From the NCBI GenBank assembly GCA_947258795.1, contig CAMYJU010000008.1, positions 62,001 through 126,000 on the forward strand: 64,000 bases of DNA. Direction: 5' to 3'. The notes beneath the pieces were generated by a model. The model did no database searches. It worked only from the letters and a program-made list of their open reading frames with translations, and was not told the DNA's origin. The position numbers were made by a program, and so were the translations under genes. The stretch comes from an uncultured Gammaproteobacteria bacterium (GTDB taxonomy: Bacteria > Pseudomonadota > Gammaproteobacteria > DRJJ01). Below are positions 5,087 through 13,276 of the stretch, piece after piece. Position 1 is the stretch's first letter. Each line of letters opens with the position of its first letter.

Positions 5087-8000
5087 TCAGGCCTTCGCCT
5101 TCCGCTTGCTGCGCCTCAACCGCGACAACAAACGCCTGGCCATTTCACCAAACATTTCGGTCTGGGTCGGGTGCGGATGGATCGCATTGGCGACCTGCTC
5201 CAGGCTCATATCGGCAGAGACCATCATCACCCCTTCACCGATAAGGGTGTCGGCATGGTCGGCCAGGTAATGTACACCAACGATACGCTGGCTGGCCTTG
5301 TCGGCGACGATCTTGATCATGCCATGGGTCTCGTTATTGATCATCGCCTTGGCGTCGATGTTCATTGGCATTTTCACCTCGATCGCATCGACACCCTGGG
5401 CCTTGGCCTGCTCGACCGACAGACCGACAAAGGCAGCCTGTGGACGCGTGAAGATGACGCCACTGTCCTTGTTCTGGTCGTACTTCATATCCTCGCCGAG
5501 GATAGTCGCGGCGGCGATCCGCCCCTGTTGCCCGGCCGTATGCGCGAGCATCAGGCCTCCGATCACATCACCGACTGCAAAGATATGCGGCACACTGGTA
5601 CGGCAACGTGAATCGGCAGTAATGATGCTGCGCTCACTGGCCACACCGGCCTTGTCCAGTTGCAATGGCTCCAGCACCGGACGTTTGCCGGTCGCCATAA
5701 CCACATAATCCACCGTGACCGTTCGATTCTTGCCTTCGGCATCTTCATAGCCGAGCTTGACCGCACCCGGCTTGCCCTTGATCGACTTGACTTTGGCCGA
5801 GGTAACAATATTCAGACGCGGTTCCTGCTGCAGCACTTCGGTCAGTTGTTTTGCAATCTCGGGCTCGACTTCGGCCAGCACACGCTCCTGCCCTTCCAGC
5901 AGGGTGACCTTGGCACCAAAGTCCTGGAATATCTGTGCCATCTCCATGCCGATTGCACCGCCACCGATCACACCCAGGCGTTTCGGTGGCTGTTCCAGTG
6001 ACCAGACGGTATCCGAGGTCAGCACGCTGCCAGCGGCCACGCTATCCTCTGCACCGGGGATCGGCGGTACGAACGGTGGTGCACCGGTCGCGATCACGGC
6101 GCAACCGAAACTGATACGCTCGCCCTGACTACCGTCGCCGGCGACATCCCGTGTATGCGGGTCATCGCTGTTACCGGCGGTATCCACGCATACGGTATGA
6201 TCATCGAGAAAACGCGCAAAACCCTGTATGACCTTGATCTTGACACCCTGGTCAGTCTTCAGCGCCATCGAGCCACGGGTTTCCAGTACGTTCTTGCGAG
6301 TGGCCTCAAGCTTTTCCCAATTCAGTTTGGCCTTGGTAGTGCCTTCGACACCAAGATGTTCGTCATGCATGCGATCACGCATGCGGTCTGCGGCCGCACG
6401 CCAGGCCTTGGACGGGATACAGCCACGCCACAGGCATTCGCCACCCGGGAATGGCGCGTCATTGATCATCGCGACCTTCATGCCATGACCGGCCAGATCA
6501 CGGGCACAGTCTTCACCACCCGGACCACCACCAATCACGACCACATCGTAATCCCAGTCACCCTCAGGTACTGCCGGGCCGGTCGGGCCCATCCAGGTAT
6601 CCGGTTGCTCGATCAGGCCCTTCAATGTATTCAGATAAAGGCCAATCTCGGCACCGTTGACCACACGATGGTCGGCCGTTACGGTCAGCGGCATACCACC
6701 CGGCCCGGCCGAAGAAATGGCCAGGATCGCCGCCGTTCCCGGTGTCGGGATTGCATCAAAATAGTTCACCCCGATCATACCCATGTTGGATACCATGAAG
6801 GTCGGGTTAGCATATTCTTCCGGTGCCAGACGGCGTTTGCGTGCGCGATCGACCAGTTCCTTCCAGTCCTCGTTCAGGGTCTCGATTTCACGAGATTCAC
6901 AGGCACGCAGCACCGGGACCACCAGACCGCCACCCTCTGCGGAAACCGCCATACCGATATCGACATTGTCACGTTCGACCAGCTTGTCCACCGGCTGGTA
7001 GCACCAGTTCACGGTCGGGTGTTTTTTGATTGCCTCGGCACAGGCCTTCGCTATCGCGACGGTAACCGAAACGCCCTTGGCCTTGGCGGCCTTGATCAGT
7101 GCGCCGGGCTGGGCATTCACACTGACGCGGAAGGTCGGCATGGTCAGCGCCGCGGTCATCGAATGGCTGACCGCGCGTTCCATCGCGTTCATCGGTCGTC
7201 CATTTCCGGGCACCTGGATCTCGGGCATGATCATGCCGGCAGTCTGGGCCTGGGCTGCCGCAACCGGCTGGACACGCCGCACGTCTTCGGCAACGACCTC
7301 TCCCTGTGGTCCGGTACCCTTGACTTCGTTCAGATTGACCCGCATTTCACCGGCCAGTTTGCGCGCATACGGTGTCACTGCCAGCCCGGCCGGACGCGCA
7401 GCCGGTTCGGCCGAGTCCAGGGTCGCTGGGGAAGGCGCTGCTACTGCGGCTGTCGTGACCGGTGTCACCGGCTTTGTTGACTTTTCTGCAACTGTCTCGA
7501 CCGCTTCGATACGGCGGGATTCGCTGACCACCTGCTCCGGTTTCTCGACCAGGTAGGCCAATGCGCCGCCAACCGCGACCACGCTATCCACTTCCACCAG
7601 TGGCCCGGACAAATAGCCGTCACGGAACACCTCCAGGTCCATGATTGCCTTGTCGGTTTCAACCTGGGCGACGATATCGCCACGCTTGATCAGGTCACCC
7701 GGCTGGTTCTGCCATTCCACCAGCAGACCTTCGGTCATGGTGTCGGACAGCTGCGGCATCTTGATGGTATACACCGCCCCTTCTGGTGCAGCCTCCTGCT
7801 CACCCGATGCATCGGCTTCGCCAGTTGCCTGAGCGGCTTCCTGTTCCGCCGGCTCAGTAGCTACGGGCGATTCACCCCGTTGCTGTACCTGATCGGCACT
7901 GGCAGCGATATAGGCCAGCGCATCGCCAACCGGGATAACGGCATCGATTTCGGCCAGTGGACCGGACAAATAACCGTCACGGAACACCTCGACATCCATA

Positions 8001-8140
8001 ATCGCCTTGTCGGTTTCCACCGTGGCGACAATATCTCCCCTGGATACCTGGTCTCCGATTGCTTTCTCCCAGCTCACCACCACCCCTTCGGTCATGGTGT
8101 CAGACAGCTGCGGCATTTTGATTACATATGGTTCAGACAT
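5087..8140 (-). CDS. Fused pyruvate dehydrogenase E2-E3: dihydrolipoyl acetyltransferase plus dihydrolipoyl dehydrogenase
   Basis: This 1017-residue protein joins two subunits that are normally separate. Two lipoyl domains come first (residues about 4-80 and 123-198, lipoyl Lys45 and Lys164, both in ETDKA), each followed by an Ala/Pro/Glu-rich linker. An E1/E3-binding domain follows (about 254-290), then the acetyltransferase domain (about 312-515). The FAD/NAD lipoamide dehydrogenase starts near 530 (VVVIGGGPGG), with redox cysteines C569 and C574 in GGECLWRGCIPSK, a second dinucleotide fold (VIGGGAIGMEMAQI) and a C-terminal HPHPTQTE dimer motif. The E2 active-site motif reads DHRVVNG, with N495 where Asp is usual. 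The gene lies 47 bases after pdhB and ends the operon. Confidence 0.95.
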   Translation of the reverse strand: MSEPYVIKMPQLSDTMTEGVVVSWEKAIGDQVSRGDIVATVETDKAIMDVEVFRDGYLSGPLAEIDAVIPVGDALAYIAASADQVQQRGESPVATEPAEQEAAQATGEADASGEQEAAPEGAVYTIKMPQLSDTMTEGLLVEWQNQPGDLIKRGDIVAQVETDKAIMDLEVFRDGYLSGPLVEVDSVVAVGGALAYLVEKPEQVVSESRRIEAVETVAEKSTKPVTPVTTAAVAAPSPATLDSAEPAARPAGLAVTPYARKLAGEMRVNLNEVKGTGPQGEVVAEDVRRVQPVAAAQAQTAGMIMPEIQVPGNGRPMNAMERAVSHSMTAALTMPTFRVSVNAQPGALIKAAKAKGVSVTVAIAKACAEAIKKHPTVNWCYQPVDKLVERDNVDIGMAVSAEGGGLVVPVLRACESREIETLNEDWKELVDRARKRRLAPEEYANPTFMVSNMGMIGVNYFDAIPTPGTAAILAISSAGPGGMPLTVTADHRVVNGAEIGLYLNTLKGLIEQPDTWMGPTGPAVPEGDWDYDVVVIGGGPGGEDCARDLAGHGMKVAMINDAPFPGGECLWRGCIPSKAWRAAADRMRDRMHDEHLGVEGTTKAKLNWEKLEATRKNVLETRGSMALKTDQGVKIKVIQGFARFLDDHTVCVDTAGNSDDPHTRDVAGDGSQGERISFGCAVIATGAPPFVPPIPGAEDSVAAGSVLTSDTVWSLEQPPKRLGVIGGGAIGMEMAQIFQDFGAKVTLLEGQERVLAEVEPEIAKQLTEVLQQEPRLNIVTSAKVKSIKGKPGAVKLGYEDAEGKNRTVTVDYVVMATGKRPVLEPLQLDKAGVASERSIITADSRCRTSVPHIFAVGDVIGGLMLAHTAGQQGRIAAATILGEDMKYDQNKDSGVIFTRPQAAFVGLSVEQAKAQGVDAIEVKMPMNIDAKAMINNETHGMIKIVADKASQRIVGVHYLADHADTLIGEGVMMVSADMSLEQVANAIHPHPTQTEMFGEMARRLLSRLRRSKRKAKA

Positions 8141-8187: not shown

Positions 8188-9171
8188 TCAGGAACGCCCG
8201 AACATTTTAAGTACGGCATCCACGACATTCTGGATATCGGGGATGGCAGCACGCTCCAGATTATGGTTGTAAGGTATTGGCACATTCTCTGCCGAGACTC
8301 GCATCGGTGGTGCATCCAGTTCGTAGAAACACTCTTCATTGATGATCGCCATAATTTCTGCGCCGACACCAACAGCAGGCTCCGCTTCCTCAACGATCAC
8401 CGCCCGATGGGTCTTGCTGACCGAGCGCTTGATGCCTTCACGATCCAGCGGACTGAGGCTGTACAGGTCGATCACCTCGGCATCGATATTATGATTGCGT
8501 GACAGGATTTCGGCCGCCTGCTGACACCAGTAGACCGAAATGTTGTAACCAAACAGGGTTACATCCTTGCCACCACGACTGATTTCTGAGCCTTCCAGTG
8601 GCATGAAGTATTCCGCATCAGGCACCTCGCCTTTCATGTTGTACATCATCTCGTGTTCATTGATAAATACCGGGTCATTGCAGCGCACTGCTGATTTCAG
8701 CAGACCATAGGCCTGACGCGGATTCGATGGCGTAACCACGCGCAAACCGGCAATGCCCATAAACACCTTTTCCATACGCGCAGAGTGCTGCGCACCGAGC
8801 TGGTGTGCGGTACCACCCGGTGAACGCACCACGACCGGTGCCATCAACTGGCCACCTGACATATAATGCACCTTGGCCGCGGTGTTGAACAACTGATCCA
8901 TCGCCAGCCACGCAAAGTTGACCGACATAATCTCGATAATCGGACGACAACCCAGGAAAGACGAGCCGATACCCAGACCGGTAAAGCCGTTTTCGGAAAT
9001 CGGTGTATCGATTACACGCTCCGGACCGTACTTGTCATACAGCCCCTTGGTCGCCTTGTAGGTACCACCGGCCACGCCGATGTCCTCACCCATACAATAC
9101 ACCAGCGGGTCGTTTGCCATTTCTTCATCATGTGCACGTTGCACCGCTTCCCAGAACATGATTTCTGCCAT
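8188..9171 (-). CDS. pdhB: Pyruvate dehydrogenase E1 component, beta subunit
   Basis: This 327-residue protein matches the usual length of the E1-beta chain of alpha2beta2 2-oxo-acid dehydrogenases. It carries the early MGEDIGVAGGTYKATKGL segment, with the Glu that activates thiamine diphosphate, and the C-terminal transketolase domain. Its ATG overlaps the pdhA stop as TAATG, so the two chains are translationally coupled. It works with E1-alpha to decarboxylate pyruvate and acetylate the lipoyl groups of the fused E2-E3 encoded next. The use of an alpha/beta E1 differs from the single-chain AceE of enteric bacteria. Confidence 0.93.
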   Translation of the reverse strand: MAEIMFWEAVQRAHDEEMANDPLVYCMGEDIGVAGGTYKATKGLYDKYGPERVIDTPISENGFTGLGIGSSFLGCRPIIEIMSVNFAWLAMDQLFNTAAKVHYMSGGQLMAPVVVRSPGGTAHQLGAQHSARMEKVFMGIAGLRVVTPSNPRQAYGLLKSAVRCNDPVFINEHEMMYNMKGEVPDAEYFMPLEGSEISRGGKDVTLFGYNISVYWCQQAAEILSRNHNIDAEVIDLYSLSPLDREGIKRSVSKTHRAVIVEEAEPAVGVGAEIMAIINEECFYELDAPPMRVSAENVPIPYNHNLERAAIPDIQNVVDAVLKMFGRS

Positions 9172-10163
9172 TAGCTTGACCCTCCGCTTGCATAAGAATC
9201 ATTCTCGGTCAGCACATATTTGTTCAATAAATCCATCGATGGTTCCGGAGATTCTTCTGCAAACCTGATCACTTCGTTTTCGATTTCTGCCAGGATTTTG
9301 GCATCCACGGCCTTGTATTCATCCTTGGTTATCTCACCGGCCTCAATCAGACGGTCAAGCAGGGTAATAATCGGGTCGCGCTTGCTCCACATGCGTTCCT
9401 CTTCCTTCTCGCGATAGGCATTGGAGTCAGACATGGAGTGCCCGCGATAACGATAGGTCATCAACTCGAGGAAATACGGACCCTTGCCGGAGCGAACATG
9501 CTCGATTGCCTTTTGCGCTGCATCATAAACGATCTCGACATCCTGGCCATCGACCTGCTCGGACGGAATATTATAGCCGGACACACGCTTGTACTGGTCG
9601 ACCACGGCGGTAGAGCGGTCGATACGCGTACCGATACCATATAGGTTGTTCTCACAGACATACAATACCGGCAGGTTCCAGATCTTGGCCATATTCAGGG
9701 ACTCGTGGAAGGTACCCTGGTTGTTGGCCGCGTCGCCGAGGAAGCAGATACAGATCTCGTCGCCACCCTTCATCTTGATACCCTTGGCAATACCGGCCGC
9801 GAGCGGGAACGGCCCGCCAACCAGCGCGTAACCACCCATAAAGCGGTTTTCTACACCGAAGATATGCATGGAACCACCCAGGCCCTTACAGCAGCCGGTC
9901 TCCTTCGCATACAACTCGGCCATCACCACCTTCGGGTCCATACCGCATTTGATCGCATGGACATGGTCGCGATAACTGGTAATCACGTAATCATGACCTG
10001 CCTGCGCGGCCTCGATCACACCCATTGCACAGGCCTCTTCGCCGGAATACAGGTGCAAGAAACCACCTATCTTGCGCTCGACATAGGCCTCGTAGCAGCG
10101 CTCTTCAAAACGCCGCGCAAACAACATTTCGCGCAGCAATTTCTTTTTGAGATCGGAATCCAT
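9171..10163 (-). CDS. pdhA: Pyruvate dehydrogenase E1 component, alpha subunit
   Basis: This 330-residue E1-alpha chain contains the thiamine-diphosphate motif GDAANNQGTFHESLN (GD...NN pattern) and GLGGSMH, plus the phosphorylation-loop-like YRYRGHSMSD. It is the first gene of the operon pdhA-pdhB-(E2-E3). A ribosome-binding site (GGGAG) precedes the ATG. Substrate could in principle be another 2-oxo acid or acetoin, since the AcoA family is close; pyruvate is preferred because the operon supplies a complete complex with its own E3 and no acetoin genes are near. Confidence 0.9.
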   Translation of the reverse strand: MDSDLKKKLLREMLFARRFEERCYEAYVERKIGGFLHLYSGEEACAMGVIEAAQAGHDYVITSYRDHVHAIKCGMDPKVVMAELYAKETGCCKGLGGSMHIFGVENRFMGGYALVGGPFPLAAGIAKGIKMKGGDEICICFLGDAANNQGTFHESLNMAKIWNLPVLYVCENNLYGIGTRIDRSTAVVDQYKRVSGYNIPSEQVDGQDVEIVYDAAQKAIEHVRSGKGPYFLELMTYRYRGHSMSDSNAYREKEEERMWSKRDPIITLLDRLIEAGEITKDEYKAVDAKILAEIENEVIRFAEESPEPSMDLLNKYVLTENDSYASGGSS

Positions 10164-11966: not shown

Positions 11967-12566
11967 ATGAAACGGATACGCAATACACTGGGCATCCTGC
12001 TGTTGTTACTGGTCAGCCACAACAGCTATGCACTCGGCGACCCGGCACTGGGCAAGGACAAGGCGGCGCGCTGTATTGAATGCCATGCGACCGATGGCAA
12101 TAACCCGGACCCGAAGGTCCCGAGACTGACGGGTCAGCTGCCTGATTATTTGCTTAAACAAATGCTGGAGTTTGTCTCGGGGCATCGCAAGGACCACGTC
12201 ATGTCCAGCATGATCAAGGAGATCAAGACCACAGACGGCCTGACCGATATCGCCGCCTACTATGCCAACCTGCCGGTCATGTCCGGTAGTGGAACGCAGA
12301 CCGCACTCGGCCAACAGGGTAAAAAACTGTATATGCAGGAACGCTGTATGTACTGCCACAACTTCACCGGCAGACCCGACGACACCTTTGCCGGCGGCGC
12401 TCCGGTGATCGGTGGTCAGAGCAAGGGCTACCTGGTCAAGGTGTTGCTGGAAATTCGCTCCGGCGAACGCAAGGCCGACATGCATGACCTGATGAAAAAG
12501 ACCCTGGCCAAACAATCGGACCAGCATATCGAGGCGATCGCTGAATTCCTCAGCAATATCAAGTAA
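11967..12566 (+). CDS. Dihaem c-type cytochrome (c4/c553-like), copy 1
   Basis: This 199-residue periplasmic cytochrome has a signal peptide ending near SYA (about residue 22) and two CxxCH haem sites, C36-IE-C39-H40 and C127-MY-C130-H131. The two halves repeat each other, each with a PxLxGQ or PVIGGQ stretch carrying the distal part of the haem pocket, as in cytochrome c4. The likely job is electron transfer in the periplasm to a terminal oxidase or other acceptor. A paralogue follows directly. Confidence 0.9.
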   Translation: MKRIRNTLGILLLLLVSHNSYALGDPALGKDKAARCIECHATDGNNPDPKVPRLTGQLPDYLLKQMLEFVSGHRKDHVMSSMIKEIKTTDGLTDIAAYYANLPVMSGSGTQTALGQQGKKLYMQERCMYCHNFTGRPDDTFAGGAPVIGGQSKGYLVKVLLEIRSGERKADMHDLMKKTLAKQSDQHIEAIAEFLSNIK

Positions 12567-12616
12567 GCATTGCATTGACTGCTCATGCGGATATGACTAG
12601 TTACAGTGAATACATC

Positions 12617-13276
12617 ATGAGCACGCTGCGAAACCCCATTATGCGCCCACACCCCGTGCTTGCCGGTATAATGCTGCTGTTGTCAGGCGCTGATACAAAC
12701 GCGGCGGGGAATCCGGTCGCCGGCGAGCAAAAGGCTGCCTTGTGCATCGGTTGCCATATACCGGGCGCCGCGAATGCTGATCCGCTGATACCGGAACTGT
12801 CCGGCCAGCATGCCAACTATATCGTGCAGGAACTATTGGAGTACCAAAATGGTCGACGCAAGGATCCGGTGATGTCAGCACTGGCAAGGATAATTACCAA
12901 TACCGAAGACATACTCGACATTGCCGCCTATTATTCGAGGCTGCCAGTCATGTCCGGCAGTGGCGAACAATTACCACTGTTCGAGGAAGGCGATGAGCTG
13001 TTCACGAATAGTCGTTGCAACTATTGTCATGGCGACACCGGTACACCGGACACGCCTTCAATAGAAGGTATGCCGATCATCGGTGGACAGAACAAGGAGT
13101 ACCTGGTCAAGACCATGAAAGGCATCCGCGCCGGCGAACGTATCGCCGACAAGTTCGGATTGATGCAGAAAGTATTTTCGAGGTTATCAGACCAGGACAT
13201 CGAGGCCCTGGCACAGTTTATCAGTACCCTGAAGGCAGTCAGTACACCGCCGCAGTCTAAAAGTTATACTCAATAA
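12617..13276 (+). CDS. Dihaem c-type cytochrome (c4/c553-like), copy 2
   Basis: This is a paralogue of the preceding gene, with the same layout: signal peptide (RPHPVLAGIMLLLSGADT), haem sites CIGCH and CNYCH, and shared blocks such as DIAAYYSRLPVMSGSG and IIGGQNKEYLVK. The start is uncertain: in-frame ATGs lie at 12593, 12617 and 12641, none with a convincing ribosome-binding site. The ATG at 12617 leaves a normal-length signal peptide. Tandem duplication followed by divergence is the simplest origin. Confidence 0.88.
   Translation: MSTLRNPIMRPHPVLAGIMLLLSGADTNAAGNPVAGEQKAALCIGCHIPGAANADPLIPELSGQHANYIVQELLEYQNGRRKDPVMSALARIITNTEDILDIAAYYSRLPVMSGSGEQLPLFEEGDELFTNSRCNYCHGDTGTPDTPSIEGMPIIGGQNKEYLVKTMKGIRAGERIADKFGLMQKVFSRLSDQDIEALAQFISTLKAVSTPPQSKSYTQ

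Follow-up and report, generated by a model that had tools for sequence, protein, structure and literature searches.

The window, the whole stretch of 64,000 nucleotides that was analysed, carries on its minus strand a single ATG-to-TGA open reading frame of 1017 codons (5087-8140), with no internal stop and no N anywhere in the coding sequence. Immediately upstream, in the same orientation, are the genes for the E1-beta and E1-alpha subunits. The features of the locus are listed below, with residue conservation taken from a set of 87 distinct homologs and, for the lipoylation lysines, from those homologs that cover the site.

5087..8140, minus strand: E2-E3 fusion open reading frame, 1017 aa (ORF listing and Pfam).
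7907..8122, minus strand: lipoyl domain 1, aa 7-78, with the lipoylation Lys45 in ETDKA (Pfam; Lys kept in 78 of 78 covering homologs, of 87).
7535..7771, minus strand: lipoyl domain 2, about aa 124-202, with Lys164 (Pfam and alignment; Lys kept in 83 of 83 covering homologs, of 87).
7277..7375, minus strand: peripheral-subunit-binding domain (PSBD; Pfam E3_binding), aa 256-288, proposed E1 binder (Pfam; Arg260 in 85/87).
6590..7198, minus strand: E2 acetyltransferase catalytic domain, aa 315-517, with Ser451, His491 and Asn495 (Pfam, alignment, AF2 model, Foldseek to E2 cores).
6557..6589, minus strand: E2-E3 linker, aa 518-528, just past the short C-terminal E2 helix with its invariant Trp516 (homolog spacing).
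5141..6550, minus strand: E3 lipoamide dehydrogenase domain, aa 531-1000, with Cys569/Cys574, His990 and Glu995 (Pfam, alignments, Foldseek to E3).
8188..9171, minus strand: pdhB, E1 component beta subunit (NF006667 above cut-off, 378.9 vs 321 bits).
9171..10163, minus strand: pdhA, E1 component alpha subunit (TIGR03182 above cut-off, 413.9 vs 393.85 bits).

Pfam recognised in the fused protein two Biotin_lipoyl stretches, E3_binding, 2-oxoacid_dh, Pyr_redox_2 and Pyr_redox_dim, all above their gathering scores. PF00198 scored 151.9 bits over aa 315-517 against a gathering score of 23 bits, and in the E3 half Pyr_redox_2 (aa 531-873) and Pyr_redox_dim (aa 894-1000) scored 223.8 and 97.7 bits. 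Congruently, the first-pass annotation had described two lipoyl domains, a binding domain, an acetyltransferase domain and a full E3 in one open frame; it had also named a stop or frameshift near residue 525, or an assembly join between two genes, as what would overturn that reading. We looked for the former and found neither a stop nor a frameshift around residue 525. The E2 and E3 halves of the gene are similar in composition (GC 0.596 and 0.589, GC3 0.698 and 0.676). Elsewhere in the window, the plus strand holds at 70-2336 genes for an MbnB/TglH/ChrH-family RiPP-modifying enzyme, then a DUF2063/NGO1945_C protein and then a DoxX protein, a set that looks like a bufferin-like RiPP operon, and at 11967-13276 two tandem cytochrome c genes with two CxxCH motifs each.

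Next, we used the 205 residues across the E2/E3 boundary as a junction query. Among 369 Gammaproteobacteria genomes, drawn evenly over the class, 76 gave a stop-free fusion match, and in 67 of these the open frame was 850 aa or longer; single-contig genomes such as G020, G035, G080, G122, G125, G132 and G310 are included in the fused set. An independent named collection contributed 80 contigs with the same chain, or with whatever part of it the contig holds; named carriers include Thiohalobacter thiocyanaticus, Thiohalophilus thiocyanatoxydans, Thiohalomonas, Thiogranum and Acidiferrobacteraceae. A search for the same architecture in other genomes, proposed by the first-pass annotation, thus gave an affirmative answer. 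Across 398 genomes sampled from the whole phylum there were three fused chains, all gammaproteobacterial and the window's own among them, and no independent fusion outside Gammaproteobacteria; every other match was to an E3 (or E2) gene alone or to an E2 and E3 pair split by stop codons. Matches in plasmid records were all below 60% identity (best ~29%) and, where annotated, corresponded to two separate genes. That the fusion is an assembly join, a sequencing error, a frameshift or a pseudogene is refuted to the point of having practically no chance left, since the same uninterrupted chain recurs in 76 of the 369 class genomes, single-contig ones among them, and in the named collection, its linker is conserved, nothing in the window supports an artefact, and broken copies elsewhere end at contig ends or, as in the apparent break of G034, where the assembly has a stretch of N. 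Two operons from entries filed as Desulfobacteraceae (L104) and Spirochaetia (L116) nest among gammaproteobacterial sequences and probably come from misbinned or misnamed MAGs, and three loci (L016, L082 and L120) hold fusion variants with one lipoyl domain.

To characterise the two halves, we examined their active-site residues. Ser451, His491, Asn495, Gly496, Cys569, Cys574 and Glu995 are unchanged in all 87 homologs, and His990, which pairs with Glu995 as the E3 base, in 57 of 57. The catalytic Ser and His and the DHRxxNG motif of an E2 are thus present in 87/87, and the E3 half has the redox Cys pair, the His-Glu pair and both Pyr_redox domains. Asp is the commoner residue at position 495; we ruled out Asn as the mark of a dead E2 because Azotobacter vinelandii E2p (PDB 1eaa, 1dpc), an enzyme unfused to E3 and with a 24-mer cubic core, also has Asn at this position of DHRxxNG (PMC8421416, the native E. 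coli PDH paper). Against the equivalog models, the E2 half scored 299.8 bits on TIGR01349 (PDH E2; cut-off 445 bits) and the E3 half 383.1 bits on TIGR01350 (lipoamide dehydrogenase; cut-off 408.8 bits), its best NCBIfam match. Since both halves lie below these cut-offs, activity is argued from the active-site residues, the fold and the operon and not from a curated match. The AF2 model of the E2 catalytic domain plus E3 had a mean pLDDT of 87.8 and a pTM of 0.76, and that of the E2 part a mean pLDDT of 89.3 and a pTM of 0.86; Foldseek matched the former to E3 structures (TM 0.89 by target) and the latter to human, pig and fungal 60-mer E2 cores (TM ~0.8).

The order E1-alpha, E1-beta, fusion is conserved wherever contigs cover the region. 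We found no PF00198 domain besides the fusion in the window's own genome, and of the 15 fused genomes checked, 9 have the fusion as their sole PF00198 E2, the window's own and the single-contig G020, G122, G125 and G132 among them. No AceE-type E1 was matched at cut-off in any of the 15. As the only E2 in nine of these genomes, with no AceE in all 15, the fusion must serve as the cell's PDH E2. If it acted instead on another 2-oxoacid (2-oxoglutarate, branched-chain or acetoin), this would sit well with two halves under their curated cut-offs and with several fused genomes that lack any other E2, but E1-alpha passes TIGR03182, E1-beta passes the PDH subfamily NF006667 and AceE is missing from the 15 genomes, which makes such a role very improbable. 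From these sequence properties we infer, with a probability of about 0.85, that the gene product is a bifunctional subunit, E2 and E3 in one, of a pyruvate dehydrogenase complex with a heterotetramer E1.

A second lpd in this genome had also been suggested as a check. Other disulfide oxidoreductases or free E3-like proteins were indeed found, namely SthA on contig C19, a PRK06292-family lipoamide dehydrogenase on C3 and an Lpd-like protein on C1 marginally below the TIGR01350 cut-off; the fusion is still the only E2. Also among these oxidoreductases is a MerA/Lpd-like fragment at C18:40-993 (L038), GGDCLHHGCVPSK, truncated by the contig end, which is not a sucB-linked lpd, and its neighbour is a membrane protein seemingly with a rhodanese-like end.

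We then considered the role of the binding domain. The first-pass annotation regarded the retained E3-binding domain as normally unnecessary, a view that is not supported, given that a PSBD binds either E1 or E3 (PMC8421416), that in Geobacillus a single PSBD binds one E1 alpha2beta2 tetramer (PMC2663715), and that the operon has an alpha/beta E1; the retained domain is therefore not redundant. An E3 that is tethered covalently would need no PSBD, which would leave the PSBDs free for E1. PSBD distances track E1 marginally better than E3 (partial r 0.43 vs 0.35), a difference in the expected direction and too weak to decide. In the cycle that we propose, E1 tetramers would be bound on the PSBDs, the two lipoyl arms would take acetyl groups from this PSBD-bound E1 and pass these on to CoA at the E2 trimer, and the arms would be re-oxidised by the E3 domain tethered at the C-terminus of the same E2 core.

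A closer examination of the junction showed that 62 of the 87 homologs have a P513-V535 spacing of 23 aa and the rest one of up to 49, and that the E3 domain begins 13-15 residues past the C-terminal E2 helix in 62/87. This short helix (aa 514-517) is kept in the AF2 model and its Trp516 is invariant in the homologs. Linkers of 11-37 residues are tolerated among the homologs, some of the long ones being Ala/Pro-rich, and from sequence the lengthened linkers of some members suggest a tether rather than a rigid joint. Stop-separated E2/E3 pairs (L127, L128 and L142) adjoin E1-beta, so the fusion plausibly arose when an adjacent pdhC and lpd lost the stop that had kept them apart. In E3-domain trees, built on a sample picked by similarity to the query, a branch with full support has every fused row on the same side. 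The long-linker members (L089-L116, e.g., L092, L094, L109 and L112) are ~59-65% identical to the others in E1 and the E2 catalytic domain, and in E3 and the first lipoyl domain they are as close to the others as the others are among themselves; a burst of change or a replaced E1-E2 core could have produced this subset. Topology tests for an exchange between the E1/E2 and E3 modules (AU p 0.67, 0.69 and 0.12) did not reject a single history, and we therefore claim no recombination. In L155 (G208:C151, 1584-2894, minus strand), a family E2 ends a few residues past the conserved Trp with no E3 behind, and a PAS-GGDEF-EAL gene sits between E2 and E1-beta; either the E3 half was lost naturally or the assembly is rearranged.

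The fixed 1:1 ratio of E2 to E3 that the first-pass annotation deduced does follow from the fusion, as long as cleavage and internal initiation do not occur. Cleavage of the linker, or free E3 made from an internal start, would give a conventional working complex, and the long Ala/Pro-rich linkers of some members and start codons present in the linker region could serve such a process. Against it, only 11 of 87 homologs have a Shine-Dalgarno-like motif ahead of a start codon in the linker, and the motif is not conserved, linker length and sequence are conserved in 62/87 and the frame is kept throughout, and we consider a separated E3 improbable.

The same annotation held that the fusion would force an unusual geometry. 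It need not do so: a two-fold E3 dimer could attach at a two-fold axis, where the short C-terminal helix of E. coli E2 makes the main trimer-trimer contact (PMC8421416), and there is a precedent in OdhA, a hexamer built from chains that fuse an obligate trimer domain with an obligate dimer domain (PMC10415282). By symmetry, an E3 dimer on a two-fold axis would be compatible with a closed 24- or 60-mer. The E3 domains would then pair across the two-fold axes between neighbouring E2 trimers, straddling or stapling the edges of the cage, with 12 E3 dimers on a 24-mer and 30 on a 60-mer; E. coli PDH, by comparison, has 24 E2 and 6 E3 dimers (PMC6270654, table). We give this predicted placement of E3 dimers on the two-folds of the E2 cage roughly even odds.

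The rival geometry is an OdhA-like assembly in which three E3 dimers would join two E2 trimers into a D3 hexamer, not a cage of 24 or 60 subunits, and the PSBDs would again carry E1. OdhA itself, with its fused trimer and dimer domains, is hexameric (PMC10415282), and a big C-terminal extension could block trimer-trimer contacts. However, the C-terminal E2 helix persists with its invariant Trp516 and a spacing fixed in most members, no insertion of the actinobacterial kind was seen, and a linker that tolerates 11-37 residues is not suggestive of a rigid joint, so that the hexamer is possible and rather unlikely. Returning to the stapled cage, the full proposal is a PDH architecture, undescribed so far, in about one fifth of the gammaproteobacterial genomes, which were sampled over its families, with E3 dimers covalently stapled on the cage two-folds, E2:E3 locked at 1:1 and all PSBDs given to E1; it is tentative as a whole, and we would sooner bet against the complete set than on it.

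Finally, we compared the fusion with known systems. The heterotetramer-E1 PDH of Gram-positive bacteria and mitochondria (E1-alpha/E1-beta, E2p, E3) is alike in its upstream E1-alpha/beta genes and in the lipoyl-PSBD-acetyltransferase order, and the E2 fold of the fusion is nearest to the 60-mer mitochondrial cores; E3 is a separate subunit there and lies within the E2 chain here. The E2 domain of the fusion is also ~14 residues shorter than human E2 ahead of the DHRxxNG motif. The Neisseria p64k-type E3 (PDB 5u25/1bhy) likewise has an extra domain on E3, and the match to the 602-aa 5u25 E3 starts at residue 122. The extra N-terminal domain of this type is a lipoyl domain, and the p64k-type chain is not known to have an acetyltransferase or a PSBD. 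The actinobacterial OdhA/KGD proteins (E2o-E1o) also carry two catalytic components per chain, an E2 that forms trimers and an enzyme that forms dimers (PMC10415282). There, however, the partner is E1o on a succinyltransferase and lipoyl is taken in trans, whereas the present fusion has E3 as partner and brings its own lipoyl domains and PSBD; Pfam places E3 domains, and no E1 domains, after E2. Among the NCBIfam models listed for the window protein and 12 members of set A1 there is no whole-chain model, so fused proteins are likely named after one half only, and none of the structure matches listed joins E2 and E3 in one chain. In the full-text literature, where subscription journals are thinly covered and an earlier description is possible, we found no description of an E2-E3 fusion, which appears to be undescribed.

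In the textbook PDH, where E2 forms a core of its own, E1 and E3 can compete for one binding domain. The conserved fusion, with no other E2 in many of its carriers, is a natural 1:1 complex with fixed E3 occupancy, and it opens to test the tolerance of an E3 excess, a PSBD used for E1 only, and the sharing of one assembly by an E2 trimer and an E3 dimer. If the stapled cage is true, a second enzyme dimer would join the core's own symmetry.
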